Source of the DNA: Liolophura sinensis
Lineage: Eukaryota; Mollusca; Polyplacophora; Chitonida; Chitonidae
Length of the DNA: 64,000 nt
Reading direction: 5' to 3'
Assembly: GCF_032854445.1 (NCBI RefSeq)
Contig: NC_088300.1
Span: 74,887,005-74,951,004 of the forward strand
The position numbers were made by a program, and so were the translations under genes. Below are positions 19,501 to 58,300 of the stretch, piece after piece (within the stretch, counting starts at the first letter, position 1; the number at the start of each line of letters is the position of its first letter). Under the pieces are notes generated by a model. That model was not told where the DNA came from. It did not search any database and saw only the letters and a list, made by a program, of their open reading frames with translations.

Positions 19501-22500
19501 TCCTACCTAATGTTTTACTGAGTTTCCCAATCTTTCTCCTACCCGATGTTCCACTGATTTTTTCATTCTCTGCCTCACTCAATCCATGTTTCACCAATTT
19601 ATCCACCCTTTGTCTTATTCAGTATTTCTCTGTTTAGTTCACTATTTGTGACTTTCCAGATGTTTTCCACACTTTACTTTTACCCAATGTTTCACAAAGT
19701 CATTCACACTTGCTCTAACTTAACGTTTTACTAATTTCACCACTCTTCATCAATGCTTTATGCATCCATCCACTCTGTTTCGCCCACACCCTAATGATTC
19801 CCAGATTCAAATGTTTCACTGACTTGCTCACCCTTTGTATCTTTGCTAATTTTTGTCCTTCTGTTGCACAAATATTCCCAATCTTTCTCGGGCACAATAT
19901 TTTACTGATTTGTCCACTGTTACTCACTGAATCTTTGTTTTACTCTTTTTCTGACTCGCTCAATGTTTCTCTGATCTGTTCATTGTTTCTCTTACTCCAT
20001 CTTTTAACCAATTTTCCCAGCTTTTCTCTTGTCGCACATTTTAGTTACGGATTATTCCATTCTTTCTCATTATCAGTGAAAAATTGTCCATTCATTCTCT
20101 TCAGTGGAAAACTGTCCACTCATTCTCTTCGTCATCCACTGTTTCATGGACTTGTCCACTTTTTATGTTTTACCGATTTCATTCCTTTTTTTTCTTATGG
20201 CTGCACTCAATTGAAAACTCTATCTTTCACAGATCTATTCATACTTTCCCTCACTCAATAAATGCTTTGCTCAATACCCACCGCTATTAAGAGTCATCTA
20301 ATGTTTTGTTACCCACTTACTCATTAACTGACTTACATACATTCTTACTCATTAGTTTGTCCTGTGCTCAGAACAGTCACATGCCACTAGTACAGTGACT
20401 GTAGACCCAGAGTTTCTCCTGTACTCAGAACAACTCACCTACTACTAGTACAGTGACTGTAGACCCAGAGTTTGTCTTTTGTTCGCCCTGTACTCAGAAC
20501 AACTCACCTACTACTAGCACAGTGACTGTAGACCCTGAGTTTCTCTTTTGTTCGCCCTGTACTCAGAACAACTCACCTACTACTAGCACAGTGACTGTAG
20601 ACCCAGAGTTTCTCTTTTGTTCGCCCTGTACTCAGAACAACTCACCTACTACTAGCACAGTGACTGTAGACCCTGAGTTTCTCCTGTACTCATAACAACT
20701 CACCTACTACTGGTGCAGTGACTGTAGACCCTGAGTTTCTCCTGTGTTTGTCCTGTACTCAAAACAGTCTCCCCCACCAGTTTCTTGTACAGAACTGTCA
20801 ACCAGTAATCCTGCAGGGTAAATGTAGAGATTAGCTATTTCTGACAAATGTGGTGCAAGTATTTGTTAGATAAATCTTTGCTGCCTACAATATCACATTT
20901 CGGTTTTTCGGTAGCGACCTTGTCTGTGGAGTAACTGAAAACAAAAATGAAAAAAGAAAGATCGCATAAAAATAGCAAATTACAATATATATTGAAAAAC
21001 AAACATTGACTGCAAGTTGATAGATAGCAAGTGAGATAGGAAATGGACACTTTGGCAATATGGAATTATAATGAGAGCCTACAAATAACCTCCTCTTGCT
21101 ATAAATGATGATAGCACAGTTGGTAGAGCGTCCGCTTCTGGAGCGGTTAGTGCAGGGTCAATCCTGGGTCGAGTCACACCTAAGGCCTTAAAAGAGGAAG
21201 TTGTAACTTCCTCGCTTGATGTTCAGCATGAAGGGGATAGTACAACGACTGGTTGAGCCGTATCAGTATAATGGCTAGGACGGGGAGCCGTACTTCCCTT
21301 TAGTAAGGCGTCTCAGTGAAACAGCACGAGATGAAGAGCGGTGGGAATCAGTCCTGCAACAAGAAGGCGCATTACATACTCTAGGAACTGCTTCGTCGTC
21401 ATATGACTGAAAAATTGTTAAGCGACGTTATACACCAATCACTCACTCACTCATTCACTATAAATGATGGATGGTCGTGGGTTATCTCCAGCTCTAACCA
21501 TAATGCTTGCCGCCATCGTATAATTGAAATATTCTTTAGTACGGGATAAACACCAATCAAATAAATAAATAAATATAAATGATGCATGGGCTTTGGGTAC
21601 ATTTAGTGCTGTAATATTTGTCTTGTATTCATCAAGGACCAGTAAATTTCCGTTGAGGTTTGTACTTTGATTTAAGTACTTTGTGACACATTTCAGAAAT
21701 TTCAGCTTTTTTTTACTGACGCTGCAGCATATAAATAATCCCGATGAAGATGAATATTGACACTTCCAATGCGACAATGACCTGTTTCCACATCTACATG
21801 TACATCGAGAATACCCCCAACGTACTGGGTTAGGACTGTAGACGCCATCAGAGTAATCCACCAGGCCGTAATTTCCACCCACAAACTCCTGCCGTATCAC
21901 TACCTCAGCCCCGTAATACGCCGCCAATCCGAGTTTGTCCAACCACCTATCAGTTAAAACCATTTACATACAGATAATCCACCAATATGGTATGTTAGAA
22001 TGTAGCATACTTGATTCAAACTTCATGTTTTACCATGCCGAATAATTCTTCAGAAACATTTAAGGTATTTATAACAAAATAAACAACTACGAAAATGTGG
22101 CCTTTAAAGAGGAAAACTATGTAGCTATGCCGTTAGCGAAAATCAGTAGACATATAAGATGTCAGCACTAACAGCGATGGATTCATTATGATATCAGTCG
22201 CTAGGAAGAAAGTAATGGGTAGAGTAACAATGGATTCGTTATGATATCAGGTCATAGGGTAAAAAATAATGAGGAGAGTAACGATGGATTCATTTTGATA
22301 TCAGTTCCTAGGAAGAAAAGCAATGAGAGTAACGATGGATTTATTTTGATATCAGGTCCTAGGAAGAAAACTAACGGGGAGAGTAACGAAGGATTCATTA
22401 TGATATCACGTCATAGGAAGAAAAGTTATGGGAAGAGTAACGATGGATTCATTTTGATAACATGTCCTAAGAAGAAAGGTAATGGGTAGAGTAACGTTGG

Positions 22501-29519: not shown

Positions 29520-31570
29520 CAACCTTAGGAAGTTGTCAAACTAGCACAGTGAATGTAAACCCTATGTTTCTCCTGTGTTTGCACTGTACACAGAACAACG
29601 CACCTACTCCTAGTACAGAGAATATAAACCCTGAGTTTCTCCTGTGGTTTCCCATGCTCAGAACAACTCATATACTGCTGGTAAAGTGACTGTACATCCT
29701 GAGTTTCTTCTGTGATGTCCTGTGCTCACAACTCACCTATTTTCTGGTACAGTGGCTGTAGACCCTGAGTTTCTCCTGTGTCTGCCCTGTATTCACAAGA
29801 ACTCACCTCCAGCTGATACGGTGACTGTAAAACCCGAGTTTCTCCTGTGATGTCCTGTACTCAGAACAACTCACTGTACTGCTGGTACAGTGACTATAAA
29901 CCCTGAGTTTCCCCTGCATTCACATCAATTCACCTACTGCGTGTTGAGTGACTGTAAACCCTGAGTTTCTCCTGTGATATCCTGTATCAGAACAACTCAC
30001 CAACTACTGGTACAGTAACTGTAGACCCTGAGTTTCCCCTGTGTCTGTTCTGTACTCAGAACAACTCACCAACTACTGGTACAGTAACTGTAGACCCTGA
30101 GTTTCTCCTGTGATGTTCTGTGCTCAGAACAACTCACCTACTGCTGGCATAGGGTGATTATTAATCCGATTTTCTCAGGTGTTTGCCCGTACTCAGATCA
30201 ACTCACCTACTGCTGATACGGTGACCGTAAAACCCTGAGTTTTATGATGTCAGAATATCTCACCTAACTGCTGGCATAGTGACTGTAGACCCTGGGTTTC
30301 TCCTGTGTGTGCCCTGTACTCACAACAACTCACCCACTGCTGATACGGTGACTGTAAAAAAAATCCGCATTTCTCCTGTGATGTCCTGTCCTCAGAACAA
30401 CTCACCCACTGCTGGTACAGTGACTCTAAACCCTGAATTTCTCCTGTGATATCCTGTGCTTAGAACAACTCACCTACTGCTGGCACAGTGAGTTTAAACC
30501 CTAAGTTTCTCCTGTTTTTGCCTTGTACTCAGATCAATTCACCTCCTCCTTGTACAGTGAGTGTAAACCCTAAGTTTCTCCTGTGATGTCCTGCGCTCAG
30601 AACAACTGGTCAGCTGCTGTTACAAAGACCGTAGACCGTGAGTTCCGAATGTACTAAGAAAAAACTCACCTACTACTGGTTCACTGACTGTAGACCTTGG
30701 GAATCTGCTGAGTTTGCCCTCAACTCAGAACAACTCACCTGCTGCTGGTACAGTGATGGTAGACCCTGAGTTTCTCCTGTGATGTCCTGTACTAACAAAA
30801 ACTCACCTACTGCTAGTACAGTGAATATACACCCTGAATTTCTCCTGTGATGCCCTGTGATCAGAACAACTCTCTTACTGCTGTTACGGTGATTGCTGCC
30901 CTGAGCTTCTCCTGTGTTTGTTCTGTACTCAGAACAATGTATCCATTATTGGCTCAGTAACTGTAGACCCTGAGTTTCTCCTGTGATGTCCTTTGCTAAT
31001 AAAAACTCACCTACTGGTAATACAGTGACTGTAGACCCTTAGTTTCTTCTGTGATGTCCTGTGATCAGAACAACTTACTTGCTGCTATTAGAGTGATTGT
31101 CAATCCTTTGCCCTGTACCTACAAACACCTGCTGCTGATGCGGTGACTATCCTGATTTTCTCAGGTGTTCGCCCTGTACTCACATCAACTCACCTACTGC
31201 TAATACGGTGACTGTAAATCCCTGTTTTTCTGTGATGTCCTGTGGTCAGAAAAACTCATCTACTGCTGTTACAGTGACGGTTAGACTGCGAGTTTCTAAT
31301 GTACTAAGAAAAACTCACCTCCTGCTAGTACAGTGACTGTAGACCCTGAGTTTCTCCTGTGATGTCCTGTGCCACAACAACTCACCTACTGCTGATGCAG
31401 TGACTATAAACCCTGAGTTTCTCCTGTGTTTGTTTTGCATTCAGAACAACCCTTCAACTACTCGCACAGTGACTGTAGACTATGGCTTTCTTATGTTTTT
31501 GTCCTATACTAAGTACAACTCACTTAGAAGTGATACAGTGACTGTAAACCCTGAGTTTCTGCCTGTGATA
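29520..31570. repeat. 69-bp exon-8-derived minisatellite, heparanase B (main part)
   Basis: About thirty diverged units of the exon-8/donor repeat. The first 180 bp are near-identical to the start of the array in gene D. A short continuation lies at 32786-32890 across the inserted retroelement. Confidence 0.82.
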
Positions 31571-32227: not shown

Positions 32228-32785
32228 TCAGAGATTCTGAACGCTCTGTCCATACCTGCCAACGAGAGTGTTATATTCATTGTAAAATTTGAGAAACTTA
32301 GAATGAAGGCGTTTGATGGAGTATCCTTGACAAACTAGTTTTTGAACTAGCAACTTGTGACGCAGATTAAAGTCATCACAATTAACGCAAGATCTGACAA
32401 ATGCTACAAGGCGAGATATGTATACGCCATATGCAGGACCCTTTGGTATATTGCTATCTAAATAAGGATAATTTACAATATCAGAATTGAAATTATCCCT
32501 TTTGTCGTAAAGGCGGCGTGAAATGAGACCTTGTCCGTCTTTGTACAGATATAGATCCAAATAAGATGTACCATCAGGACTATCTGTTGTCTCCTTTAAA
32601 TCCAATGAAGGCGTATAGATTTCCTTCACCGCTTCAGCAATATGGGGATTATTTAACGCCAGTAGATCATCAATATACCGCTTGGTAAATGAAAAGGATC
32701 GAGCTTTAAAGATATTACTTTTAAGTAATTTCTGCATATAGTCGTATTCATATGAAAACAGGTATAGGTCTGCTTGTCCATGTCC
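32228..32785 (-). mobile_element. 5'-truncated reverse-transcriptase fragment
   Basis: About 185 codons, open to a stop at 32228, containing FTKRYIDDLLALNNP (the YIDD polymerase box). SYLDLYLYKDGQ and LYDKRDNFNSDIVNYP follow, then AYGVYISRLVAFVRSC. This belongs to a widespread invertebrate reverse-transcriptase family whose clade I cannot assign with certainty. The upstream catalytic part is missing. The fragment starts abruptly inside a heparanase exon-8 repeat unit at about 32785, as expected for a 5'-truncated insertion. Confidence 0.65.
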
Positions 32786-32889
32786 TGTGCTCACTACAAC
32801 TCACCTAGTGCTGGTGCGGTGACTCGTCCTGTGTTTTACTCATGTGTTTTTCCTATACTTTTGCCCTCAACCCAGAACAACTCACCTAC

Positions 32890-34090
32890 AACTGGTTAGC
32901 TTGTCCACCCATCTAACAGCGTTACAACAGAGCCAGATAATGACTAGCCTTAGCTTATCCAGCCACATAACTGTGTTATAACAGAGCCAGGTAATGACTA
33001 GACTTAGCTGGTCCATCCACCTAACAGTGTTATAACAGAGCCAGATAATGAATAGCCTTGGCTTGTCCATCCACATAGCAGTGTTATAACAGAATCAGAC
33101 AATAACTTCTAGCCCTGACTTGTCTAGCCACATAGCAGTGTTATAACAGAGCCAGATAATGACTAGCCCTGACTTGTCTAGCCACATAGCAGTGTTATAA
33201 CAGAGCCAGATAATGACTTACCCTGACTTGTCAAGCCACATGACAGTGTTATAACAGAACCAGATAATGACTAGCCCTGACTTGTCTAGCCACATAGCAG
33301 TGTTATAACAGAACCAGACAATGACTAGCCCTGGCTTGTCCATCCACATAGCAGTGTTATAACAGAACCAGATAATGATTAGCCCTGACTTGTCCAGCCA
33401 CATGACAGTGTTATAACAGAACCAGATAATGACTAGCCCTGACTTGTCCAGCCACATGACAGTGTTATAACAGAACCAGATAATGACTAGACTTAGCTTG
33501 CCCATCCACATGACAGTGTTATAACAGAACCAGATAATGACTAGCCTTGGCTTGTCCATCCACATAGTAGTGTTATAACAAAATCAGACAATAACTACTA
33601 GTCCTGGCTTGCCCATCCACATAGCAGTGTTATAACAGAACCAGATAATGACTAGCCTTGGCTTGTCCATCCACATAGCAGTGTTATAAAAAAATCAGAC
33701 AATAACTACTAGCCCTGGCTTGTCTAGCCACATAGCAGTGTTATAACAGAGCCAGATAATGACTAGCCCTGACTTGTTCAGCCACATGACAGTGTTATAA
33801 CAGAACCAGATAATGACTAGGCTTAGCTTGCCCATCCACGTAGTAGTGTTATAACAGAACCAGATAATGACTAGCCCTGGCTTGTCTATCCATATAGCAG
33901 TGTTATAACAAAAACAAACAATAACTACTAGCCCTGGCTTGTCTAGCCACATAGCAGTGTTATAACAGAGCCAGATAATGACTAGCCCTAACTTGTCCAG
34001 CCACATAACAGTGTTATAACAGAACCAGATAATGACTAGCCCTGACTTGTCCATCCACATGACAGTGTTATAACAGAACCAGATAATGAC
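32890..34090. repeat. 54-bp exon-7-junction minisatellite, heparanase B
   Basis: About twenty-two units related to the array in gene D. Its left end joins an exon-8-type unit directly, with no exon 7 body between them. Confidence 0.82.
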
Positions 34091-34382
34091 TAGCCTAATA
34101 TCTTTATCTTTTAATGATTAAAATAAGACTTTCTGCATAGGTTTGTGCAAGTGCATATAGATGCATGGTTTATATAACAATTTCATGTACCGTACACTTA
34201 CCTAAGTTATCTATCTTTTATCAAGCTTCTGTCCCTGTTTCCTCAATCAATACACCTGACCATCGGCAGAAATACTTTAGTCTAACACAAAACACCTTTC
34301 ATACACATAAAACTATAAATACTGAAAGCTTGCTCGGTTAATGTCAAAGCATTCTGTGGTCATATCAACTGAAATTCCTTAC

Positions 34383-36530: not shown

Positions 36531-37999
36531 GATCAGTAAATGGCCAGAACCCAACAGTCGCCCCGTGACGATCACATACCACAGTTTGCAACAGTCGCCC
36601 ACCCGGCGGTTTTGTGTTCGGTAGACGACGGTCGTCTCGGTGGCGATCACGTACCACGGTGAGCGAGTGTTATCCCGATTCCACTTCGGTGTCTCTAGGG
36701 ACGACCCAGTCGCGCTTGGGTGGTACCATTTCGATGGATACATACAACCGTTTTGTCACCAGCTTGCAAAAATACTTCCAGTCCGCCAAGGATGGACAAA
36801 GAAGCACTACGATGGTAGTACAGACTCAATACGACCATCCCCGATGACACAGTTCAAAGCCTCTTTTACGACATGAACTTCGACATATCTTTGAAATAAA
36901 TAGCTATTACCCACATACCTGGTCAAGTTCTATTTAAGCAGCTCAGATGTGGACTGGATATAATAAATATATCGTGCCAAATGGAACGGTCTTGAAGATA
37001 ATCGCATGAATTTGAACAAATCGTAGGGAAAACATCCTGAATTTTTGTTAAAAGTAGAACATGAGTATATTTCATTTAAAAAGAGGAACGGCTCTCGTTA
37101 TTGTAGGACTCGAGGACACGACAGTGCAATCCCACGTCAACCGGTAAGCCCTTGGCAAGTACCGCGTTTTTGTTTTTTTCAGCATAAACTATTATTCCAC
37201 CAAAAATGAAAATAGTATCCACTTTGACTACAGCGGAAGGCATCTTACTTCCGATGAGCTTCATTTTGGCGAAGTTAAGATTTTTTTTTTTTTTTTTTTT
37301 GATTGGTGTTTTACGCCGTACTCAAGAATATTTCACTTATACGACGGCGGCCAGCATTATGGTGGGTGGAAACCGGGCAGAGCCCGGGGGAAACCCACGA
37401 CCATCCGCAAGTTGCTGACAGACCTTCCCACGTACGGCCGGAGAGGAAGCCAGCATGAGCTGGACTTGAACTCACAGCGACCCGCATTGGTGAGAGACTC
37501 CTGATCATTACGCTGCGCTAGCGCTTTAAGCGACTGAGCCACGGAGGCCCCTGCATGAGTTGAGACTAACAGACAAATCCATTGATCCTTTATAGCAGTA
37601 TCAGAGGTAATAACATCAGCAGGGCTTTTTTAAGAAGGTAACAGCTGATAGCATATTTACCCCTCTATAATTTATGAAAGAAATGTATTTACTTGTGTAA
37701 ATCTCAAACAATTTTAGAGACCATCAAAACAACTAATATTAATATTAATTACATACATATAAATAAATAATAAAGGTTAAATGTCACATTACATCAATTT
37801 TATAATAATCAACAACAAATATACTAATGTACAACCTTGCGCATCTCATGCAAGGAAATATATCATCTTGAAAAAAATTTAACTCGAAATGATGTTATAC
37901 ATGTGCAACTACTTGTTCAAGAATGATTTTTTTTAAAAATAAATTCTTTTCATACACAAATATGTCAAAACTGGATGATGAAAAGCACATTAACTCAGG
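36531..37999. other. Intergenic spacer between heparanase B and A
   Basis: No gene seen. It holds the GC-rich beta-type upstream repeats (36550-36670), a poly-T run and a SINE at 37290-37552. From about 37555 the sequence is shared with the region downstream of gene C. Confidence 0.45.
37290..37552 (-). mobile_element. tRNA-derived SINE downstream of heparanase A
   Basis: Tail at left (poly-T, then GATTGGTGTTTTACGCCGTA) and tRNA-like head at right (GACTGAGCCACGGAGGCCCC). Confidence 0.8.
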
Positions 38000-38153
38000 T
38001 TCCCATACACGCAGCTGCCCCAGAATTAGGGACAACGATAAATGCAAACGAGAATGGCGGGAAGAGGGACTTGGGATGAGAGAATTTTCGGTGGCAAGGG
38101 AGGTAACTGTCCAGATATCAGCTCCAAGGGTTTACCCATTCAGATTCACCTTC
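37997..38153 (-). CDS. Heparanase A exon 10, frameshifted
   Basis: The acceptor and RKVNLNG are intact, then an inserted base gives TAA at 38132-38134. The rest of the exon is recognisable with a second 1-bp insertion near 38060 (GCGGGAAGAGG). The end of the region is set by homology to gene C. Confidence 0.75.
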
Positions 38154-41100
38154 CTGAAACAGCCAAATATGAGTTAGTTTGGAAAACAGATTGAATTTGA
38201 TGCCTATATAGGTTCAGTGAAGTACTATGACAGTCTGGAACTAAGTGTATGCCAAAGAATTATATGATGGTTCACAGGTCTGTACTCAGCATGCCCAGTC
38301 TAACCTGGAATTAGGGTATACACCTGTCTTAATCCCAGGCCTGACAGGCCACTGGGGCGATGTTTTCAGATCTAACTGTACATTTAGAGTACTACAAGTA
38401 GGCAATGTCATAATGAGGAATATTGAGGAGTAACTTGTCATCTATAGGTCGCGAATATTACCGGCACCGTCAGTTTTACCAGGATGCATAACTTTGCCTC
38501 AGTATAGATGGTTTAAATGGCAGCCATATTTGAGGTAAGTTTGTATATATTGCCCATTGTGTGTCCTTACCAGGTACAGGCCTCTGTCCAGCTTATGACA
38601 CCTCTAACAATAGACACCCCATTGGGCAATACACAAACCTACCTCAAAGATGGCTGCCATTGCAAACCATCTATAACAATAGATTTACACAAGATGGCCT
38701 GTTACCGTTGTCACCGTGATAGTATGCGTCAATCAACGTGTACTGGACCCAGTGGTTCAAAAGTGTATTAAGACTTAAGCCCGGTATTAACTTTAGTCCA
38801 GACTAAAGTGTCATTTACTTTGTATTAGGTTGAGATTGGTATTAACATTTAAGCCTAGCTTAACTTTAATACACTTTTGAACAACTGGCCCCTGAACTAC
38901 GTAGATGGAGAATCAGATAAATCAGATAAACAGTCAATTCAATCAATTCTGATATTAGGTAGGGTATGGCTCTCTTCAATGTCGACCCATCTTACCTGGT
39001 CACCAAGGTTGTATCGTCACCAGACGTCAGCTCGTAAACATGCAGGTCAATACCTCTAAACTGGGGGAAGGACACATTCATGGATGTGTTGTACAGATTC
39101 ATCGCATAGAACGTTATTGCCCCAGGACCATAACTAGACCTGCAAACCCAGAAAGTAAATAGTTATATTTACGATATATATATACTTATCTGCCCGGCAA
39201 ACAACTGTTTAATACTCACATAATTTTTCTTTTGTGGGATAGAACAAATCCACTGCACTACATTCGACACCAATTCAATTTTGCAATGTATTTATTCATA
39301 TATATGTTGAATAAAAATGAAATGAAAACAAACAACGCAATTGTTGGCGATATTTGTCAACTTCAACCCACGTATGTTCGCCTATCCTTAACCTACATTC
39401 AGTACATCATATGCTTTCTTCTTAAAACCTAACAGTGTTTCTCTTTTCAAGTACCTAATCTGAACAGTGCCTCATATCTCATATCGCAATCTTATTCAAT
39501 CTAATCCAGTGTTTCGTTAATTTATCCACTCTTTCTATTATTCAATGTTTCACTGACTTTCCCAAACCTTCTCTTACCCAATGTTTCACTGATTTTCCCA
39601 ATCTTTCTCTTGTCCCATGTTCCACTTATTTGTCCACTTTTCTCTTAACGTTTTACTGAGTTTCCCAATCTTTCGCCTGTCCGATATTTCACTGATTTTC
39701 CCAATCCTTATATTGCCCAATGTTCCACTTATTTGTCCAAAAGTTTTACTGATTTCCCCAATCTTTCTCTTTTCCGATGTTCCACTTATTTGTCCACTTT
39801 CTCTTAATGTTTTACTGAGTTTCCCAATCTTTCTCGTGTCCGATATTTCACTGATTTTCCCAATCCTTATATTGCCCAATGTTCCACTTATTTGTCCAAT
39901 CTTTCTCTTACCTAATGTTTTACCGAATCTCCCAATCTTTCTCTTGTCCGATATTTCATTGATTTTTCAAATACTAAATATTTCACAGCTTTGTCCACCA
40001 CTTCTGTTGCTCATCGCACATTTTAGTTACGGATTATTCCACTCTTTCTAATTATCAGTGAAAAATTGTCCATTCATTCTTTTCAGTGAAAAACTGTCCA
40101 CTCATTCTCTTTCTCATCCACTGTTTCATGGACTTGTCCACTTTTTATATTTACAGATCTTAAATCAAGGCTTTACTGATTTCGTTCCTTTCTTTCTTAT
40201 GGCTGCACTCAACTGTAAACTCTATCTATCACAGATCTATTCAGGCTTTCTGTTACTCAATAAATGCTTTGCTCACTACCCACCCCTTCCTGGATTCATC
40301 TAATGTTTCGCTAATCACTTACCCATTTACTGACTTACTTACATTCTCACTGACTATTTTGTCTTGTACTCAGAACGGTCACCTGCCAGTGACTGCAGAC
40401 CCTGAGTTTCTCCTGTGTTTGTCCAATACTCAGAACAACCCTGAGTTTCTAATCCGTTTGTCTTGTACTCAAAACAACTCGCCTGCCATTAGTACAGTGA
40501 CTGTAGACCCTGAGTTTTTCCTGTGTTATTCCTGTGCTCAGAACAACTCACCTACTACTGGTACAGTGACTGTAAACCCTGAGTTTCTCCTGTGTTATTC
40601 CTGTACTCAGAACAACTCACCTACTACTGGTACAGTGACTGTAAACCCTGAGTTTCTCCTGTGTTATTCCTGTGCTCAGAACAACTCACCTACTACTGGT
40701 ACAGTGCCTGTAAACCCTGAGTTTCTCCTGGGTTATTCCTGTGCTCAGAACAACTCAACTACTACTGGTACAGTGCCTGTAAACCCTGAGTTTCTCCTGT
40801 GTTATTCCTGTGCTCAGAACAACTCACCTGTAGTTTCTCCTCAGTTAGTCCTGTACTCAGAGCAACCCACCTACTACTGGTACAGTGACTGTCGACCCAG
40901 AGTATCTCCTTAGTACTGTACTCAAAGCAACCCACCTCGTACTGGTACAGTGACTGTAGACCCTGAGTTTCTCTTGTGTTATTCCTGTGCTCAGAACAAC
41001 TCACCAACTACTGGTACAGTGACTGTAAACCCTGAGTTTCTCCTGGGTTATTCCTGTACTCAGAATAACTCACCTACTACTGGTACAGTGACTGTAAACC

Positions 41101-44100
41101 CTGAGTTTCTCCTGGGTTATTCCTGTACTCAGAACAACTCACCTACTACTGGTACAGTGACTGCAGACCCTGAGTTTCTCCTGTGTTTGTCCAATACTCA
41201 GAACAACCCTGAGTTTCTAATCCGTTTGTCTTGTACTCAAAACAACTCACCTACTACTGGTACAGTGACTGTAAACCCTCAGTTTCTCCTGGGTTATTCC
41301 TGTGCTCAGAACAACTCACCAACTACTGGTACAGTGACTGTAAACCCTGAGTTTCTCCTGTGTTATTCCCGAGCTCAGAACAACTCACCTACTACTGGTA
41401 CAGTGACTGTAAACCCTGAGTTTCTCCTGGGTTATTCCTGTGCTTAGAACAACTCACCTACTACTGGTACAGTGACTGTAGACCCTGAGTTTCTCCTGGG
41501 TTATTCCTGCGCTCAGAACAACTCACCTACTACTGGTACAGTGACTGTAGACCCTGAGTTTCTCCTGGGTTATTCCTGTGCTCAGAACTCACCTACTACT
41601 GGTACAGTGACTGTAGACCCTGAGTTTCTCCTGGGTTATTCCTGCGCTCAGAACAACTCACCTACTACTGGTACAGTGACTGTAGACCCTGAGTTTCTCC
41701 TGGGTTATTCCTGTGCTCAGAACAACTCACCTACTACTGGTACAGTGACTGTAAACCCTGAGTTTCTCCTGTGTTATTCCTGTACTCAGAACAACTCACC
41801 TACTACTGGTACAGTGACTGTAAACCCTGAGTTTCTCCTGGGTTATTCCTGTGCTCAGAACAACTCACCTACTACTGGTACAGTGACTGTAAACCCTGAG
41901 TTTCTCCTGTGTTATTCCTGTGCTCAGAACAACTCACCTACTACTGGTACAGTGACTGTAGACCCTGAGATTCTCCTGGGTTATTCCTGTGCTCAGAACA
42001 ACTCACCTACTACTGGTACAGTGACTGTAGACCCTGAGTTTCTCCTGGGTTATTCCTGTGCTCAGAACAACTCACCTACTACTGGTACAGTGACTATAAA
42101 CCCTGAGTTTCTCCTGTGTTATTCCTGTACTCAGAACAACTCACCTACTACTGGTACAGTGACTGTAGACCCTGAGTTTCTCTTTTCTTTGCCCTGTACT
42201 CAGAACAACTCACCTACTACTGGTACAGTGACTGTAAACCCTGAGTTTTTCCTGTGTTATTCCCGTGCTCAGAACAACTCACCTACTACTGGTACAGTGA
42301 CTGTAGACCCTGAGTTTCTCCTGTGTTATTCCCGTGCTCAGAACAACTCACCTACTACTGGTACAGTGACTGTAGACCCTGAGTTTATCCTGTGTTATTC
42401 CCGTGCTCAGAACAACTCACCTACTACTGGTACAGTGACTGTAAACCCTGAGTTTCTCCTCAGTTAGTCCTGTGCTCAGAACAACTCACCAACTACTGGT
42501 ACAGTGACTGTAAACCCTGAGTTTCTCCTGGGTTATTCCTGTGCTCAGAACAACTCACCAACTACTGGTACAGTGACTGTAGACCCTGAGTTTCTCCTGG
42601 GTTATTTCTGTACTCAGAACAACTCACCTACTACTGGTACAGTGACTGTAAACCCTGAGTTTCTCCTGGGTTATTCCTGTGCTCAGAACAACTCACCTAC
42701 TACTGGTACAGTGACTGTAGACCCTCAGTTTCTCCTGTGTTATTTCCGTGCTCAGAACAACTCACCTACTACTGGTACAGTGACTGTAGACCCTCAGTTT
42801 CTCCTGGGTTATTTCTGTACTCAGAACAACTCACCTACTACTGGTACAGTGACTGTAAACCCTGAGTTTCTCCTGTGTTATTCCTGTGCTCAGAACAACT
42901 CACCTACTACTGGTACAGTGACTGTAGACCCTGAGTTTCTCCTGGGTTATTCCTGTGCTCAGAACAACTCACCTACTACTGGTACAGTGACTGTAAACCC
43001 TGAGTTTCTCCTGGGTTATTCCTGTGCTCAGAACAACTCACCTACTACTGGTACAGTGACTGTAGACCCTGAGTTTCTCCTGTGTTATTCCCGTGCTCAG
43101 AACAACTCACCTACTACTGGTACAGTGACTGTAGACCCTGAGTTTCTCCTGTGTTATTCCCGTGCTCAGAACAACTCACCTACTACTGGTACAGTGACTG
43201 TAGACCCTGAGTTTATCCTGTGTTATTCCCGTGCTCAGAACAACTCACCTACTACTGGTACAGTGACTGTAAACCCTGAGTTTCTCCTCAGTTAGTCCTG
43301 TGCTCAGAACAACTCACCTACTACTGGTACAGTGACTGTAGACCCTGAGTTTCTCCTGGGTTATTCCTGTGCTCAGAACAACTCACCTACTACTGGTACA
43401 GTGACTGTAGACCCTGAGTTTCTCCTGGGTTATTTCTGTACTCAGAACAACTCACCTACTACTGGTACAGTGACTGTAAACCTTGGGTTATTCCTGTGCT
43501 CAGAACAACTCACCTACTACTGGTACAGTGACTGTAGACCCTGAGTTTCTCCTGTGTTATTCCCATGCTCAGAACAACTCACCTACTACTGGTACAGTGA
43601 CTGTAGACCCTGAGTTTCTCCTGGGTTATTTCTGTACTCAGAACAACTCACCTACTACTGGTACAGTGACTGTAAACCCTGAGTTTCTCCTGTGTTATTC
43701 CTGTGCTCAGAACAACTCACCTACTACTGGTACAGTGACTGTAAACCCTCAGTTTCTCCTGGGTTATTCCTGTGCTCAGAACAACTCACCTACTACTGGT
43801 ACAGTGACTGTAAACCCTGAGTTTCTCCTGGGTTATTCCTGTGCTCAGAACAACTCACCTACTACTGGTACAGTGACTGTAGACCCTGAGTTTCTCCTGT
43901 GTTATTCCTGTACTCAGAACAACTCACCTACTACTGGTACAGTGACTGTAGACCCTGAGTTTCTCCTGGGTTATTCCTGTGCTCAGAACAACTCACCTAC
44001 GACTGGTACAGTGACTGTAAACCCTGAGTTTCTCCTGTGTTATTCCTGTGCTCAGAACAACTCACCTACTACTGGTACAGTGACTGTAGACCCTGAGTTT

Positions 44101-47100
44101 CTCCTGGGTTATTCCCGTGCTCAGAACAACTCACCTACTACTGGTACAGTGACTGTAAACCCTGAGTTTCTCCTGGGTTATTCCTGTGCTCAGAACAACT
44201 CACCTACTACTGGTACAGTGACTGTAGACCCTGAGTTTCTCCTGTGTTATTCCTGTGCTCAGAACTATTTGCCCTACCAAGTTCTTGTATAAAACAGTCA
44301 GCCAGTAATCCTGGAAAACAACAGTTTCTTTAACTGCATGTATAACATATATGTGGTCCTAATAAGACTAAAAAGAATTTTAAACGATACTGGTACCATA
44401 GTGTTCCATGGTTTAAAGGAGGTACACATGTACAAGTGCCAGTCCAACACATTTTCGTGTGAGTCCGGATCCAGAATACCATGAACAATGTCACTGCCAG
44501 ACGTCTGTCTGTCTCTCAACAACATTATGGAAAAACATATGCACAAGTTTGCAAGAAAATATTCAGCACAGAATGGCCTTCATACAAGCCCACAATCAGT
44601 CAATTTTGGGTTCATCCATAGCTTGATCCAGATCCAGGAATAAATGATTCTTCATCATAGCAAAATGCAGTATTTTGCAATTCTCCTGAAGTATTTAGCA
44701 ATTGCAGTATTGTCCCTTTTGTGTAGTGGGAGATTTGTTCACTTATTTTGGTGGAGGTTTGTGCCCTTGGAAAACATTTTAGTTTATTTTGTTATCACTT
44801 TCTACATGTATGTGATTAGGATTGTACAATCCACCTGGGTATCTAGGCTCAGGGTAAATCTCATGTTACCCTAAATGATCTAAAACGTCACCCACAAAAG
44901 TGCATTTTTAAGGGCAAATAAATGTCACCAAATATTATTTTTGGTGATGAAACAATTTTTCAGCAGAATACCATAGCATGATCTAAGCAAACCTCAAAAC
45001 ACCTTTCTAAGCTCAATAGAACTCCCAGAATCAGGAAAAATGTGCAAGTTAGTCATGGAAGAAATTTACGGTCATTTAGGGTATATAATCTGATACAAAT
45101 AAAACCCCATACATGAAATTTGCAGAATAAATCTGAAAAGATTTACCACATAAGAACTGTGCCTAAATAAAACAGAAGTTTTGTCATACTTACCGGGTTC
45201 ACACTGAAGACCCCATCAGAGTACTCCACCAGTCCATAGCTTCCACCTACAAAGTCTTGTCTTAGCACCACTTCCGCTCCATAATATGCAGCCAGACCAA
45301 GCTTGTCCAGCCACCTGACAATGTTGACCAGACAATAAACATACATGTGACGGAACTAGACAAAAACCATACAACGTGACAGAACTAGACAAAAACCATA
45401 AACATGATTCAACTAGACAATAAACATGATAGAACCAGATAATAAACATGCTTAAACTAGACAATAAATATAAACATGATAGAATCAGACAATAAACATA
45501 AACATGACAGAACCAGAAAATAGACACAAACATGATAGAACTAAACAAAAAACATGAACATGATTGGACCAGACAATAAACACAAACATGATAGAACTAT
45601 ACAATAAACATAAACATGATTGAACCAGACAATAAACATAAACATGATAGAACTAGACAACAAACATAAACATGATTGAACCAGACAATAAACACAAACA
45701 TGATAGAACTATACAAAAAACATGAACATGACAGAACCAGACAATAGACACAAACATGATAGAACTATACAAAAAACATGAACATGATTGGACCAGACAA
45801 TAAACATAAACATGATAGAACTAGACAATAAACATGAACATGATTGGACCAGACAATAAACACAAACATGATAGAACTAAACAAAAAACATGAACATGAT
45901 TGGACCAGACAATAAACACAAACATGATAGAACTATACAAAAAACATGAACATGACAGAACCAGACAATAGACACAAACATGATAGAACTATACAAAAAA
46001 CATGAACATGATTGGACCAGACAATAGACACAAACATGATAGAACTAAACAAAAAACATGAACATGATTGGACCAGACAATAAACACAAACATGACAGAA
46101 CTATACAATAAACATAAACATGATTGAACCAGACAATAAACATAAACATGATAGAACTAGACAAGAAACATAAACATGATAGAACTAGACATAAACATGA
46201 TAGAATTAGACAGTAAACATAAACATGATAGAGCTAGGCAATAAACTTAAACATGATAGAGCTAGACAATAAACATAAACATGATAGAACCAGACAATAA
46301 ACATAAACATGATCAAGCCAGGCAAGAAACATAAACATGATAGAACCAGATAACAAACATAAACATGACAGAACCAAACAATAAACATAAACATGATAGA
46401 ACAAGACAGTAACCATGAAGATGACAGAACCAGGCTTTAAACCAGAAATACATATATTTCACAATTTGCTAAGTTACAGTGTTCTGATGTCAAATTATCA
46501 ACTCAATTTCGATTGACACTTACATGAATCCTGCGATAAATGTATTGGACACACCAGGAACACCACCATCATAGGCTGAACTCGTTTCTCCTACCCAGAA
46601 TTTCTGCGTGCCCCGAGACAGGTTACGCAAAATTTCCTGCGCAGATGTCATATCTGGGATAAAACTGTCCAGTCTGGTTGTGTCTATAAAGTCCCGGCGT
46701 GTAGCTTTGTGTCCATTCATATAATAACTGGAAGAGAAATTAAAATGTCCTGATGTCTGTCAGTTAATTAAAGCTGAAGAAAAATGGAGGTTTCACTTAA
46801 AATCAATCTGATTAAATTCATGGACTGCATGTAAATTCATGCCTACTGCAGTAACTCTGCGGGTGTCATTTTCTCAGCCATTAACAGCTGCTTGACATAT
46901 TGAATGAAACAAAGACTTAAACAGCGATCAGTCCAAATACTAATGATCCAGAGACATTCACTGATTGGTTGTTCTAGGTGTTGCAGTCCTTACACCATTG
47001 TACATCACTGACAGAAGATCACAAGGCAGAGGTTATAGGCTACTAAATACACTGAGATAGTTTTCTACAAGTTGCAGGGATATTCCTTTATAATAACAAT

Positions 47101-50100: not shown

Positions 50101-52218
50101 TAAATCCATACTATCAACATTTTGTGACATTCATTATTGACAGTATGTGGTTTCAAGGTGATCATTACTAATCTAAATGTTGCTGTGATATTCATTAATT
50201 GATCTTAGTCTGTGATTTCATGGCGAACATTCCAGTCCATATTTTCTGTTACTTGTTACAGCTAGCTCCTTGACAGATTTTATACCCTCCACACAAGGAC
50301 AAGCTGGAGATGAACGAGCAACCTCTATAATTCGTCAATGTTTTCTGGACACTCTGGAGAAGCTACTAGGCTGCCTAGCTAGCAGTAGCTATATTTTGCT
50401 GGAAGTGTAGCTGTATTATCCTCAGACAAATCATCAGTGTAACGCTTCCTACCATTGCCTAGCTCAAGATCCAGTACATAACCCCTGTCAGTTGAGTACT
50501 TCATTAGTTCAATGGCATTTGCTGGATCCCAGACTCCTCCAGGACGATACAGGCTGTTCAGACCAAAAATCAGACTTAGGTTGGCCTGTATGGCAAACTG
50601 GTTCAGCTCATCCCATTCTGTGGCTGTAACCAAAACCAAAGGAAACATAAAGAAAAGACGGCGTTGTTTACCACAATAAGACATTAGCTTAAATAGAAAA
50701 GGTGGGCAGACCCATGCCTTAATAAAGGACAGACCTACATATATAAGCAAAATACAAGTAAAAGTAATCAAGAACCATTCAGTGTATAGATGATTGCGGT
50801 CAGTTTTATAGGTGGAACAAACCTGAGTGCTTGGTGTAAACCACTGACCTTTGGTAAGTTACTGACACACTTTCTCACATATGACGTACATGCAGATATG
50901 CATGCTATCATATTGCTGTAGACAGTGGTCTTCAACGCAAGTGAGCTGCTGAGCAAATGACACGACTGAGTGTCGCTGACTGCTTGTTGTTACCATACAA
51001 ATAAAATAACTGAGCACTATGACAACTTACTAGACAGTGTGCTGTTAGGAAAGTCTTTGTCTGAAAGTTTGTTTCCAGTACTGAAAATGAGGGAGTCCCC
51101 TGATGTCCCTCCGACCCTCAGGTAGGCAGGGTAGAGAGCTTTGGCCAACGTGATTGCCAGTGACGACCTACACGTCAACAAAAGTCGAGACGTCACAAAC
51201 ACCGATCTGTGTTCTGTACAGAAGCATGTTAAAACTCACAGATTTTTTTTTTGTCTTGAGTTCATTATTTGTCATCTATAATTCAGCATTATAACTTTGA
51301 CACACAAGCTGAATATATCTATTCATTTGTATCCAAAAACATGAATATATCAAACAGTAAACCAGTATGTTATATAATTGAAACAATGATAAAAAATAAG
51401 ATATGTATACCCACCACAATAAGATACAATATTTTTAAACATGACGTTAAAGTTTCATAAAATACAGGCAACATTCAAACATATGTTCAAACCTAATTAA
51501 CATGTTCAAACGTATAATTAACATGTTCAAACGTATAATTAACATTTTCAAATGTAATTATTTGTTTATTTATTTATTTGATTGGTGTTTTACGCCATAC
51601 TCAAAAATATTTCACTTATACGGCGGCAGCCAGCATTATGGTGGGAGGAAACTGGGCAGAGCCCGGGGGAAACCCACGACCATCCGCAGGTTGCTGGATG
51701 ACCAAACGCAATTAACACGTTCAAACACACTGTAGCCTTCCAAATGTTAGTTTTACGCTTTCAATTACATTGATTTACAAAAATTTATAAAATTTGCGAA
51801 GAAATGGGACATTTCAAGTAACTCCTTTAAGTTGGTTAATTTAAGAGTGGCAATTAAAACTTACAAAAACTTTTGCATATTTATTTGGAATATGGGATAC
51901 ATTCCATAACCCAGCAAGACGACAGATTATATGACTCATACAGGCACAATATAGTGATCATATCCCCACAAGTCGTTCAACTTTCGAGTCGTCATTTCAG
52001 CTACCGGCCGTGCAAATACAAACATGCCATTACCTGGGGTCGAAACCCTTCCAATGGTTCACAAGATTGCCTGCATCCAGCGTGATACTGACAAACCTCT
52101 CACTGGTCACGGACACCACATGGTCTGGCTGTACGGTCACTTCCAAGCCCGCCACTTGTACGGACTGGATCAGCAGGGAGCCTAGACACAGGCACGTATA
52201 AACAGTCGGCGCGACCAT
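38132..52218 (-). CDS. HPSE-like: Heparanase gene A, beta/alpha hybrid, frameshifted last exon
   Basis: A GH79 heparanase with exons 52034-52218, 51031-51167, 50453-50623, 49462-49633, 47322-47369, 46524-46727, 45194-45314, 44204-44310, 38996-39139 and 38132-38153. Exons 1-9 are open with matching phases and include ELGNEP and [11 protein letters not shown]. In exon 10 an extra C in TTTACCCATT creates GGG TAA seven codons in, so the protein would stop at 436 residues. A further extra G lies downstream. Exons 1-8 are closest to gene D, whereas exons 9-10 and their surroundings match gene C. The missing C-terminal strands belong to the C-terminal domain that human heparanase needs for secretion and activity. 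The shift could be real or an assembly error. Confidence 0.82.
38504..38674. mobile_element. Hairpin MITE-like repeat, heparanase A intron 9
   Basis: Second copy of the inverted-repeat structure at 16952-17121, shared by descent with the 3' end of gene C. Confidence 0.55.
38745..38891. mobile_element. MITE with CAGTTGTTCAAAAGTG-type termini, heparanase A intron 9
   Basis: Left end GGACCCAGTGGTTCAAAAGT and right end CACTTTTGAACAACTGGCCC. Same insertion as 17187-17340. Confidence 0.55.
38996..39139 (-). CDS. Heparanase A exon 9
   Basis: Encodes [20 protein letters not shown] and [16 protein letters not shown]. It is near-identical to gene C. Confidence 0.86.
39490..40000. repeat. 72-bp minisatellite, heparanase A intron 8
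   Basis: A shorter and more irregular form of the array at 18000-19640, in the same position relative to exon 9. Confidence 0.7.
40365..44203. repeat. Expanded 69-bp exon-8-derived minisatellite, heparanase A intron 8
   Basis: About 55 highly similar 69-bp units. On the minus strand each reads [20 protein letters not shown] followed by AGGTGAGTT, that is, the end of exon 8 with its donor. A marker variant (TCCTCAGTTAGTCC) recurs at 42451 and 43279, exactly 828 bp or 12 units apart, so blocks have been duplicated. The long plus-strand frames (up to 331 codons) are antisense artefacts. Confidence 0.9.
44204..44310 (-). CDS. Heparanase A exon 8
   Basis: [20 protein letters not shown] matches gene D, then [15 protein letters not shown] matches gene C and the array units. 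It ends AG before gtgagt and borders the 3.8-kb array. Confidence 0.87.
44311..45193. other. Heparanase A intron 7
   Basis: About 880 bp of AT-rich unique sequence. No repeat array or gene was seen. Confidence 0.45.
45194..45314 (-). CDS. Heparanase A exon 7
   Basis: Encodes [19 protein letters not shown] and VGGSYGLVEYSDGVFSVNP. The acceptor is cattgtcag and the donor gtaagt. Confidence 0.88.
45330..46435. repeat. 28-bp minisatellite beside exon 7, heparanase A intron 6
   Basis: About forty units of 28 bp containing CATGATAGAACCAGACAATAA. It starts next to the exon 7 acceptor, and its TTGTCTGGTTCTAT (minus strand) resembles TTATCTGGTTCTGT of the 54-bp unit in gene D. It probably grew from the same intron end. 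Confidence 0.75.
46524..46727 (-). CDS. Heparanase A exon 6 (nucleophile exon)
   Basis: Encodes HYYMNGHKATRRDFID and [16 protein letters not shown], ending FIAGFM. It is intact, in contrast to the same exon in gene B. Confidence 0.89.
47322..47369 (-). CDS. Heparanase A exon 5
   Basis: The 48-bp micro-exon FMKTGSEYISAMTFH, identical in protein to gene D. Confidence 0.85.
47691..48471. mobile_element. Foldback element with ~205-bp inverted arms
   Basis: The arm at 47691-47900 is the inverted copy of 48250-48471, with about nine in ten bases alike by eye (for example ATTCTGCATGCCACACC in both orientations). The loop is a 38-bp minisatellite. It lies in intron 4 of gene A and is absent from the same intron of gene D. 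Confidence 0.65.
47925..49330. repeat. 38-bp GTGTCAGTGCACAGTGACT minisatellite, heparanase A intron 4
   Basis: Regular 38-bp units at 47925-48250, then diverged units from 48470 to about 49330. Same family as 8740-9370. Confidence 0.7.
49462..49633 (-). CDS. Heparanase A exon 4
   Basis: Completes the catalytic Glu and encodes EPNIYPHKYNRSVDPQQLG, then LLLGPDV. The sites are attgacag and gtaagt. Confidence 0.87.
49868..50106 (+). mobile_element. SINE with damaged head, heparanase A intron 3
   Basis: Head region partly deleted (TTCCATGGCCAAGG). The core (ACCATAATGCTGGCCACCGT) and CACCAATCAAATAAATAAAT tail are clear. Confidence 0.7.
50453..50623 (-). CDS. Heparanase A exon 3
   Basis: Encodes TEWDELNQFAIQANLSLIFG, then LNSLYRPGG and ELGN. 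The sites are ggttacag and gtagga. Confidence 0.87.
51031..51167 (-). CDS. Heparanase A exon 2
   Basis: Encodes [20 protein letters not shown] and SGDSLIFSTGNKLSDKDF, ending PNSTLS. The sites are gtgtag and gtaagt. Confidence 0.87.
51557..51700 (-). mobile_element. Truncated SINE, heparanase A intron 1
   Basis: Tail and core only: TTTATTTATTTATTTGATTG and GGCAGCCAGCATTATGGTGG. It is inserted among ACATGTTCAAACGTATAATT repeats. Confidence 0.65.
52034..52218 (-). CDS. Heparanase A exon 1
   Basis: ATG at 52218, leader CLCLGSLLIQSVQVAG, then LEVTVQPDHVVSVTSERF. It ends GACCCCAG before gtaatg. Confidence 0.87.
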
Positions 52219-55329: not shown

Positions 55330-58300
55330 CTAGAGAAATAGGAGGACATATAATATCTGTTTTACCTCATGTTAATATCCTGGCCCACTTCACAGCATCT
55401 TCCAGTTACAACCAGCATATAATCAGTCTGTCTTACCTCCAGCACAAGAGTCCATATTATGGTCTGCTTAACAAAGTTACAACCAGATTATAATCAACCT
55501 GTCTTACCTCCAGTACATGTGTCATCATCATGACAATATCCCCCAGTTACAACCAGTGTATAATCAACCTGTCTTACCTCCAGTACATGTGTCATCATCA
55601 TGACAATATCCCCCAGTTACAACCAGTGTATAATCAACCTGTCTTACCTCCAGTACATGTGTCATCATCATGACAATATTCCCCAGTTACAACCAGTGTA
55701 TAATCAACCTGTCTTACCTCCAGTACATGCGTCATCATCATGACAATATCCCCCAGTTACAACCAGTGTATAATCAACCTGTCTTACCTCCAGTACATGT
55801 GTCATCATCATGACAATATCCCCCAGTTACAACCAGTGTATAATTAACCTGTCTTACCGCCAGTACATGTGTCCACATCATGACAATATCCCCCAGTTAC
55901 AACCAGTGTATAATCAACCTGTCTTACCTCCAGTACATGTGTCCACATCATGACAATATTCTCCAGTTACAACCAGTGTATAATCAACCTGCCTTACCTC
56001 CAGTACATGCGTCATCATCATGACAATATCCCTCAGTTACAACCAGTGTATAATCAACCTGTCTTACCTCCAGTACATGTGTCATCATCATGACAATATC
56101 CCCCAGTTACAACCAGTGTATAATTAACCTGTCTTACCGCCAGTACATGTGTCCACATCATGAACATATCCCCCAGTTATAACCAGTGTATAATCAACCT
56201 GTCTTACCTCCAGTACATGTGTCATCATCATGACAATATCCCCCAGTTACAACCAGTGTATAATTAACCTGTCTTACCTCCTGTACATGTGTCCATATCA
56301 TGACAATATCCCCCAGTTACAACTAGTGTATAATCAGCCTGTCTTACCTCCAGTACACGTGTCATCATCATGGCCTGTCTCACAATAACCTCCAGTTACA
56401 ACCAGTGTATAATCAACCTGTCTTATATCCTGCACATGTGTCTATATCATGGTCTGTCTGACAATATCCCCCAGTTACAACAGGTGTATAATCAACCTGT
56501 CTAACCTTCAGCATGTGCCCGTATCATGGCCTGTCTCACAATAACCCCCAGTTACAACCAGTGTATAATCAACCTGTCTTACCTCCAGTACATGTGTCCA
56601 TATCATGACAATATCCCCCAGTTACAACTAGTGTATAATGAACCTGTCTTACCTCCAGTACATGTGTCCATATCATGACAATATCCCCCAGTTACAACCA
56701 GTGTATAATCAGCCTGTCTTACCTCCAGTACACGTGTCATCATCATGGCCTGTCTCACAATAACCCCCAGTTACAACCGGTGTATAATCAACCTGTCTAA
56801 CCTCCACCATGTGTCTATATCATGGTCTGTCTGACAATATCCCCCAGTTACGACTAGTGTATAATCAGCCTGTCTTACCTCCAGCACATGTGCACATATC
56901 ATGGTCTGTCTCACAATATAACCCCAGTTACAACCAGTGTATAATCAGCCTGTCTTATATCCTACACATATGGTCTGTCTCACAATATCCCCCAGTTACA
57001 ACCAGTGTATAATCAGTATGTAGTACCTCCAGCACTTGTGTACATATCATGATCTGTCTCACAATATCTGCCAGTTACAATCAGTGTATAATCAACCTGT
57101 CTTACCTCCAGCACAAGCGCATGTGTTATGGTTTGTCTCACAATATCTCCCAGTTACAACCAGTGTATAATCAGTATGTAGTACCTCCAGCACATGTGCA
57201 TATATCATGGCCTAGATCATAATAACCCAGAAGAAGAGAAGTGTCATAAACCTGGCTTACCTCCAGCATATGTCCCAGCTTTGTTACTGTATTTCCCACC
57301 CGGAGGAGAGTAAATGGCTCGACTCTGTTTGTTTATTTTCTTAGCAGATGCCCCATCACTGGAGTCAAAAGTGATCGGTGTTCGCTTTTGGCTGAAATTG
57401 CAAATATTTATTTATCTGATTATTGCTTAACATGTTGACTGCCGGCTACGAGATAACTCGTAGTGGTTGGTGCACCGCGTGACGCCAGTACGAGTTATCT
57501 CGTAGGTAATTTCTATGATCCTCAAAGTACATGGCAAATGCTGTAAACTAAAAGCAAGGATGATGGCAACAGGCTAGAAGCCTTATTTACCGGAAATTGA
57601 AAACAAAAGACATGTCTGACAAAAACGTCTCATTTATTCGCTACATTTTGACAGGCCAACCTGAACAGAGATATCTGCTCTTTCTCACAGTCTCTGTGCA
57701 AGCTATATTCAGACAAAAAATGACATTTGTCGGCAATGGACAGTGTGGATGTAATTTACCACGGATTTACCATAAAAGGGTAAAGGCAGATACGAATTAT
57801 TGTCAGTAAGCAGTATATGTCCGACGAAAAATTCACAACACATGGTACACCTTGAAGCACGGATCGACGCAAAGGGCTGGTTTCTCAGGACATACGGGGC
57901 AAATGTACCTTGTTTCTCGTCTTCTGCCATTTTTCGTGCATTGGCGGCATGGCTTTGTTGGCCTCTCCTTTTTCTCTGTAAGTGGTACGCCGACAAGGTG
58001 GTGAAAAGTTTCTGCGGGCGGTCCTTCAGTCAGGGTCGGCTGAAGGTCAACGTTTCCCAGCAGGTGAAGCGTTACCTTTTCACGGAACCGCAGCATTCTC
58101 ATTTGTTCACCCACTGATTCGTTGTACATCATGTGAGCATTGAACAACATGATCTCCAAACCATGGAGTCCGATTTTCTTGTACCAACGGATTGTTTTGC
58201 GCAAAGCAAAATAGTAAGAGAGCATCTGGTCTGACTGATCGATCCCAGACATCCCATTGTTATAATCACGCACAATGTTTGGTTTCTGGGATACCTTTTG

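Follow-up and report, generated by a model that had tools for sequence, protein, structure and literature searches.

A 69-bp minisatellite carrying a heparanase exon end and its splice donor, with similar arrays at other splice junctions of a chiton genome

In human IFI6 (6-16, G1P3), Turri, Cuin and Porter reportedly described in 1995 (Nucleic Acids Res 23:1854) a minisatellite with multiple splice donors. Zhuo et al. are said to have dealt, in 2007, with the origin of introns from tandem arrays or duplication. Two downstream repeat units of IFI6 are reported to act as donors (PMC4526556), tandem genomic duplication is given as a source of introns in the case of potato RdRp (PMC4974935), and arrays of minisatellite-length units lie within intron 1 of an earthworm metallothionein gene (PMC12783039). 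Here we analyse an array of 69-bp units in intron 8 of a heparanase gene (gene A) of the chiton Liolophura sinensis, in which most units copy the end of exon 8 together with its splice donor. The array lies in a 64-kb stretch (G000:C6:74887005-74951004, hereafter the window) of a 609-Mb genome, and positions given without a locus name are those of the window.

Read on the minus strand, exon 8 of gene A has a TTTTCCAG acceptor just upstream and GTGAGTT directly downstream. The intron opens with this GTGAGTT at 44203 and passes immediately into repeats of the exon-8 end and donor; the start of the array coincides with the exon's own donor, which it copies, as a preliminary description of the locus had claimed. 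Apart from a few variable positions, the unit equals the final 62 nt of exon 8, which start at 44265, with GTGAGTT added. Homology between the unit and the second half of the exon, also proposed beforehand, was confirmed by a local alignment score of 209, against at most 26 for shuffled sequences (n = 40). Tandem Repeats Finder (TRF) gave a 69-bp period across 44265-41206, with extra rows for the more irregular part to about 40400, and the array takes up about three quarters of the intron (roughly 5.06 kb). Parsing yielded 58 units; 56 had fewer than 25 gaps, and the mean identity to their own consensus was 95.8%. Of 54 units with readable donor columns, 49 carried GTGAGT and 45 carried AGGTGAGT. 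A direct count over 44310-40365 found 51 GTGAGT words, spaced by exactly 69 nt in 45/50 cases, and the earlier figure of about 55 copies, nearly all with GTGAGT, agrees with these numbers. Reading through to the second donor gives ...HCTSSR*VVLSTG... with TGA in frame, as had been predicted, and this stop sits about 65 nt ahead of the junction that the second donor would form.

The heparanase (GH79) genes form a tandem cluster on the minus strand of the window, identified by tblastn and by a GH79 domain above the Pfam cut-off (Table 1). An exon match to PF03662 (the GH79 N-terminal domain) at G000:C6:74937458-74937667, window 50454-50663, scored 29.5 bits against a cut-off of 23.1. Exons are numbered after the ten pieces found in this analysis, and pieces 1-9 of gene A are present in order (tblastn). 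Exon 8 matched the heparanase query at 52.6% identity (E = 4.4e-6); its 35 residues on their own matched no Pfam family, and the identity of the gene as a heparanase therefore rests on all exons together, which bear out the earlier assignment. The ten pieces of gene A do not make one open frame, as exon 10 is frameshifted as assembled, with one extra base in each of a GGG and a CCC homopolymer run relative to copies C and D, in which exons 8-10 are open. These changes may reflect a damaged gene or base errors. Judged from the assembled sequence, the gene A copy may produce no whole heparanase, unless the exon 10 changes are base errors.

The unit is present in all six cluster copies found, numbering 56 in A, 30 in B, 6 in C, 32 in D, 9 in E and 4 in F (units with fewer than 25 gaps in the parsed stretches). 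The first duplication therefore predates the cluster. The preliminary description had presented the array as an event in one gene, a view contradicted by these copies and by the several independent junction-spanning arrays found elsewhere. When exon 8 and the first repeats were compared as DNA with the whole genome, all 68 matches fell at C6:74.876-74.931 Mb, within the heparanase cluster, and no match of the unit outside the cluster was found in this whole-genome search of the best-scored candidates (n = 7, common words skipped). The unit is thus likely to be rare elsewhere in the genome; had it been common away from heparanase genes, the preliminary description would have been refuted. Identity to the array's own consensus is 95.8% in A, 85.0% in B and 86.8% in D, and in the older arrays the GTGAGT donor is intact in 17/28 (B) and 20/29 (D) readable units. 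By this measure, the long array A looks like a late, homogenised expansion. Higher-order structure in array A is weak, with a best lag of 12 units (0.904; other lags 0.870-0.900). Its common variants are synonymous in 5/8 cases (p = 0.025, unplanned test) and its rare variants in 13/38; arrays B and D gave no clear synonymous excess when coding-like variation was sought.

Table 1 Heparanase genes, exons and tandem arrays of the cluster (window positions unless a locus is named).
Feature	Position	Strand	Remarks
Gene A	about 52.1-38.0 kb	minus	
Gene B	36.4-28.2 kb	minus	damaged
Gene C	26.8-16.4 kb	minus	
Gene D	13.2-1.0 kb	minus	
Gene E	begins at left edge of window, continues into locus L001		
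Remnant F	locus L005, farther left		exon 10 match and 69-bp units
Gene A exon 7	45194-45314	minus	WLDKLGL...
Gene A exon 8	44310-44204	minus	107 nt; 35 residues (DYWL...HCTSS) plus AG; sequence, tblastn
Gene A exon 8 true donor GT	44202-44203	minus	context TAG/GTGAGTT
Gene A exon 9	about 38996-39139	minus	
Gene A exon 10	about 37995-38153	minus	as assembled, frameshifted twice (+1 each) against copies C and D
Gene C exon 8	20704-20810	minus	tblastn
Gene D exon 8	4513-4619	minus	tblastn
Gene A 69-bp minisatellite	about 40380-44203	minus	about 55 units; most are exon-8 end plus GTGAGT donor
Gene B 69-bp array	29546-31560; further piece 32781-32896	minus	diverged; TRF, parsing
Gene C 69-bp array	20354-20703	minus	short; TRF, parsing
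Gene D 69-bp array	2413-4512	minus	older, diverged; TRF, parsing
Gene B 54-bp exon-7-acceptor array	32899-34095	minus	3' end fused to 69-bp units
Gene D 54-bp exon-7-acceptor array	5010-6658	minus	about last 35 nt of intron and about first 15-19 nt of exon 7
28-bp array preceding gene A exon 7	45327-46433	minus	intron only

Donor-spanning arrays of other units were found at two further heparanases. At locus L003 a 74-bp array of 7.8 copies begins at the exon 7 donor, and at L002 a 61-bp array of 17 copies begins within exon 2, its units mostly carrying CAG/GTAAGTGG; a third heparanase (L004) had no donor-spanning array among its TRF rows. We also chose 19 P450 loci from 99 matches before their arrays were seen. 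These were judged by donor-like words in the units, one locus being read closely, so that the count covers donor-spanning arrays with a clear donor word. One of the 19 (L013) has an array in which GTAAGT follows the terminal ~43-50 nt of a coding exon (TRF row 4981-7625; by reading 8060-6700), and the exon matches p450 at E = 4e-19. A higher-order duplication is seen within this array, where a longer portion of the exon is copied from about 6880 onwards. Many of the 19 loci (including L021, L023 and L024) share an interspersed repeat with frames resembling a 23-residue peptide.

To extend the survey to the genome, we scanned for three AGGTAAGT words 40-70 nt apart. The first ~100 of 867 matches, covering the first 93.4 Mb of C1, were grouped by hand into 23 arrays; the upstream flank was read for all of them and edges were set by alignment. 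Three arrays begin inside an exon supported by homology: RPTOR (PDB match, E 1.7e-14), GH31 (5.4e-13) and prominin (6.1e-9, barely above the cut-off). At five more (L030, L034, L037, L041 and L044) an open frame runs into the first donor with about 30-55 nt of it in the repeat; L030 and L034 had no homologues in PDB or Pfam, and L037, L041 and L044 none in Pfam, the one database searched for them. L038 and L039 form a doubtful class, in which the open frame reaches the first donor with little or none of it in the repeat, and homologues were found neither for L038 in PDB or Pfam nor for L039 in Pfam, the sole database searched. The array edge of L033 and L045 lies beyond the fetched flank. The other 11 were judged not exon-like, although in four of them (L027, L031, L035 and L036) the first donor is likewise reached by an open frame, 42-95 codons long, so that such a frame does not by itself prove an exon.

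Acceptors are copied as well. Twelve consensus units from the window were tested against the exons with 60-nt flanks, and two span a junction, the 69-bp unit and a 54-bp unit at the exon 7 acceptor of genes D and B. The 54-bp unit scored 106 in gene D, where the flank includes part of the array, and 37 in the array-free gene A, with shuffles at most 27. The AG is changed to AT in 25/26 matched copies of array D, the single exception being the true acceptor, and in 14/15 of array B. A rule that acceptor copies must be dead was nevertheless ruled out by two acceptor-spanning arrays with an intact AG, one at an exon with a DEP domain (L048, E = 1.8e-13), where the stretch holds 5 copies of TTTGCAGG, and one at a probable deoxyribose-phosphate aldolase exon (L049), for which the aldolase matches (E 0.033-0.045) stand beneath a chance-like top match at 0.018. 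In gene B the 54-bp acceptor array joins the 69-bp donor units directly near 32896; our searches recovered exons 6, 9 and 10 there, but neither exon 7 nor the first half of exon 8. The simplest reading of this one case would be a deletion between two flanking junction arrays.

Several further arrays were noted. Upstream of the RPTOR exon (L026), at a distance of roughly 300 nt, stands an array of TTTTGCAG copies, and L026:1-1551 holds an acceptor-word array (54 bp, TTTTGCAGGTATG) upstream of this exon and the donor array downstream of it; the upstream array is only a candidate for an exon-derived one. In the window, the minus-strand unit of a 70-bp array (55402-57115) contains CTGGAGGTAAGAC, a donor-like word. 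A 38-bp array with 92% matches (L001:7300-8385) stands between exons 3 and 4 of gene E; gene C is without it, and its corresponding flanks are about 20 nt apart. As candidates for exon-derived units we rejected the 28-bp unit, which matches intron flank only, namely the edge of its own array, and the nine other window units, whose scores fell inside or adjoining the shuffled range.

We consider it likely, with a probability of about two in three, that the gene A array is a minisatellite straddling a splice junction which arose by ordinary tandem duplication and was tolerated as the original exon and donor stayed intact. An early duplication would have taken ~62 nt from the end of exon 8 together with 7 nt from the start of the intron. 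A duplication of this kind, across a donor, would be tolerated because it leaves the original exon and donor untouched and merely lengthens the intron, and the array would then have grown by further duplications, presumably through slippage or unequal exchange. The spliceosome would most likely use mainly the first donor, since this is transcribed first and gives the shortest exon, while later-donor mRNA of gene A would carry an early stop and should be removed by nonsense-mediated decay. The same process is observed at other splice junctions of the genome, in several genes. The anatomy of the array, the shared origin of its unit and its recurrence can be read directly from the genome: the unit is homologous to the end of exon 8 with its donor, it occurs in six copies and is unmatched elsewhere, and independent donor arrays occur at exons of two other heparanases, P450, RPTOR, GH31 and prominin. 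A donor octamer that does not stand out in the large arrays, AGGTAAGT arrays no more numerous than those of the reversed word, and a genome crowded with arrays (all detailed below) also favour this account. Of the alternatives left by the preliminary description, that the array is simply tolerated fits best.

Some observations weigh against this account. Use of the first donor is a prediction, and in test substrates with duplicated identical donors the intron-proximal one often wins; because such experiments often favour the donor nearest the acceptor, donor choice is a real question here. When the donor octamer was ranked among the 69 circular 8-base windows of the unit by identity to each array's own consensus, its ranks (A 28, B 22, C 21, D 11, E 1 and F 16) all fell in the better half. 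Its mean identity was above that of the rest in 6/6 arrays, by 0.02 to 0.065, and with arrays pooled the donor window had the 11th fewest distinct variants of 69. Across the genome, overlapping matches to donor words also exceeded those to the reversed words, with 867 vs 692 for AGGTAAGT and 1496 vs 559 for AGGTGAGT.

The strongest alternative, which we regard as unlikely, is splicing noise with decay. Later donors would be used appreciably and their TGA products destroyed, and the array would dim heparanase output according to its length, as a passive dimmer. Gene A does offer dozens of equal donors with an identical 60 nt upstream, any later one of which yields the product ending in HCTSSR, and with units 69 nt apart the stop falls about 65 nt short of the following junction. 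Nonsense-mediated decay is predicted to remove an mRNA with a stop at about that distance from the new junction. The last exon of gene A is, however, frameshifted as assembled, so its output may not matter.

Somewhat less probable again is a mutational bias by which minisatellites in this genome arise preferentially at exon-intron junctions, and at donors above all. In favour of such a bias are four independent donor-spanning arrays at the fetched heparanase and P450 loci and the excess of donor word matches given above, which extends to the acceptor word TTTGCAGG (209 vs 106 for its reverse in overlapping matches genome-wide). The same can be said of 25 AGGTGAGT arrays, grouped by hand, in the first 52 Mb of C1, for which the reversed word was counted as matches only. 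Counted as hand-grouped arrays over the first 57 Mb of C1, however, AGGTAAGT does not exceed its reverse (12 vs 14), and many of the AGGTAAGT words in the genome are probably real donors, so that 8-10 exon-like cases out of 23 may be near random. The share of tandem arrays is 31.8% in the window and 16.6% at the 19 P450 loci, and in a genome so crowded with them some will straddle junctions anyway. The word counts neither demonstrate nor rule out a bias towards junctions.

The preliminary description had raised a splicing-dependent switch, with the array kept so that the cell can choose a truncated heparanase, and this we find improbable. An in-frame stop right after the true donor and a 69-bp unit in all cluster paralogues found would suit a switch, as would the donor octamer, which in each of the six arrays is a little more conserved than the average and in E ranks first of 69 windows. 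Yet the octamer is unremarkable in the three large arrays (A, B and D) and outstanding only in one small array (E). Median identity at donor and other positions is equal in A, C, E and F, and stands at 0.893 vs 0.885 in B and 0.95 vs 0.90 in D; distinct variants per site, donor vs rest, are 0.75 vs 0.77 in A, 1.62 vs 1.74 in B and 1.12 vs 1.62 in D. The six arrays share ancestry, so these tests are not independent, and donor conservation would be at most a faint hint of selection. Selection on the donor was accordingly dropped as a claim, the identity excess in six arrays being judged too weak and too dependent. Nor is there a common frame logic. Unit lengths at RPTOR (61), prominin (76) and L003 exon 7 (74) cannot be divided by three, and neither can the 65 nt of the first copy at L002 exon 2, while the P450 (57) and GH31 (39) units are multiples of three and stay open to the next readable donor, which in the P450 array lies two units (114 nt) on. 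As the first four shift the frame while the last two remain open, no common design is apparent, and exon 10 of gene A is broken as assembled.

An assembly artefact in the length of the array, or in the array itself, is very unlikely: tandem arrays are difficult to assemble and the two +1 homopolymer changes in exon 10 may be base errors, but an artefact could hardly account for both the diverged arrays of the five other copies and the unrelated arrays at other loci.

It is conceivable, though we would put it at somewhat less than an even chance, that splice-junction minisatellites are a large class in this genome, present perhaps in hundreds of genes, with a donor or acceptor copied 5 to 50 times. 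Were this true, they would form a natural series of splice-site competition experiments, arrays that keep the frame open (P450, GH31) could become new protein isoforms, and paired arrays could remove the exons that they enclose, as may have happened in heparanase B. Studies of donor choice among identical sites usually rely on engineered constructs with two or three duplicated sites. The natural genes described here offer up to about 50 equal, regularly spaced donors, in paralogues with from few to about 50 copies, and their units yield a stop, a frameshift or an open insertion; they could thus be used to test rules of first come, proximity and exon definition. The arrays also show a simple route to intron lengthening, and one by which exons between two arrays may be lost.

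Set beside the known systems, the gene A array shares with earthworm metallothionein intron 1 the presence of minisatellite-length units inside an invertebrate intron; the earthworm units are not described, in the accessible part of that source, as containing exon ends or splice donors, whereas the gene A units contain both. The likeness to intron origin by AGGT-carrying tandem duplication is that gene sequence is copied in tandem together with splice-site letters. That process makes a new intron, while the gene A array lengthens an old one, with no sign of a newly made intron. In the heparanases at L002, L003 and L004, matches to the regions of exons 8 and 9 are likewise separate, with DNA between them, and because these genes too are interrupted at this point, intron 8 does not qualify as a gain. 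Our literature search, with partial coverage and few subscription journals, brought up no account of minisatellites recurring at exon junctions of a single genome; what looks new here is the long unit derived from an exon, together with its recurrence across genes. The closest precedent is human IFI6. As in IFI6, the gene A minisatellite offers multiple donors, starting at the exon's own donor and with a consensus donor in most units. Unlike IFI6, with its short unit of 12 bp and downstream donors used in real isoforms, it has a 69-bp unit that is mostly coding exon, its repeated sites are candidate donors only, a stop follows each of them, and the pattern recurs in unrelated genes.

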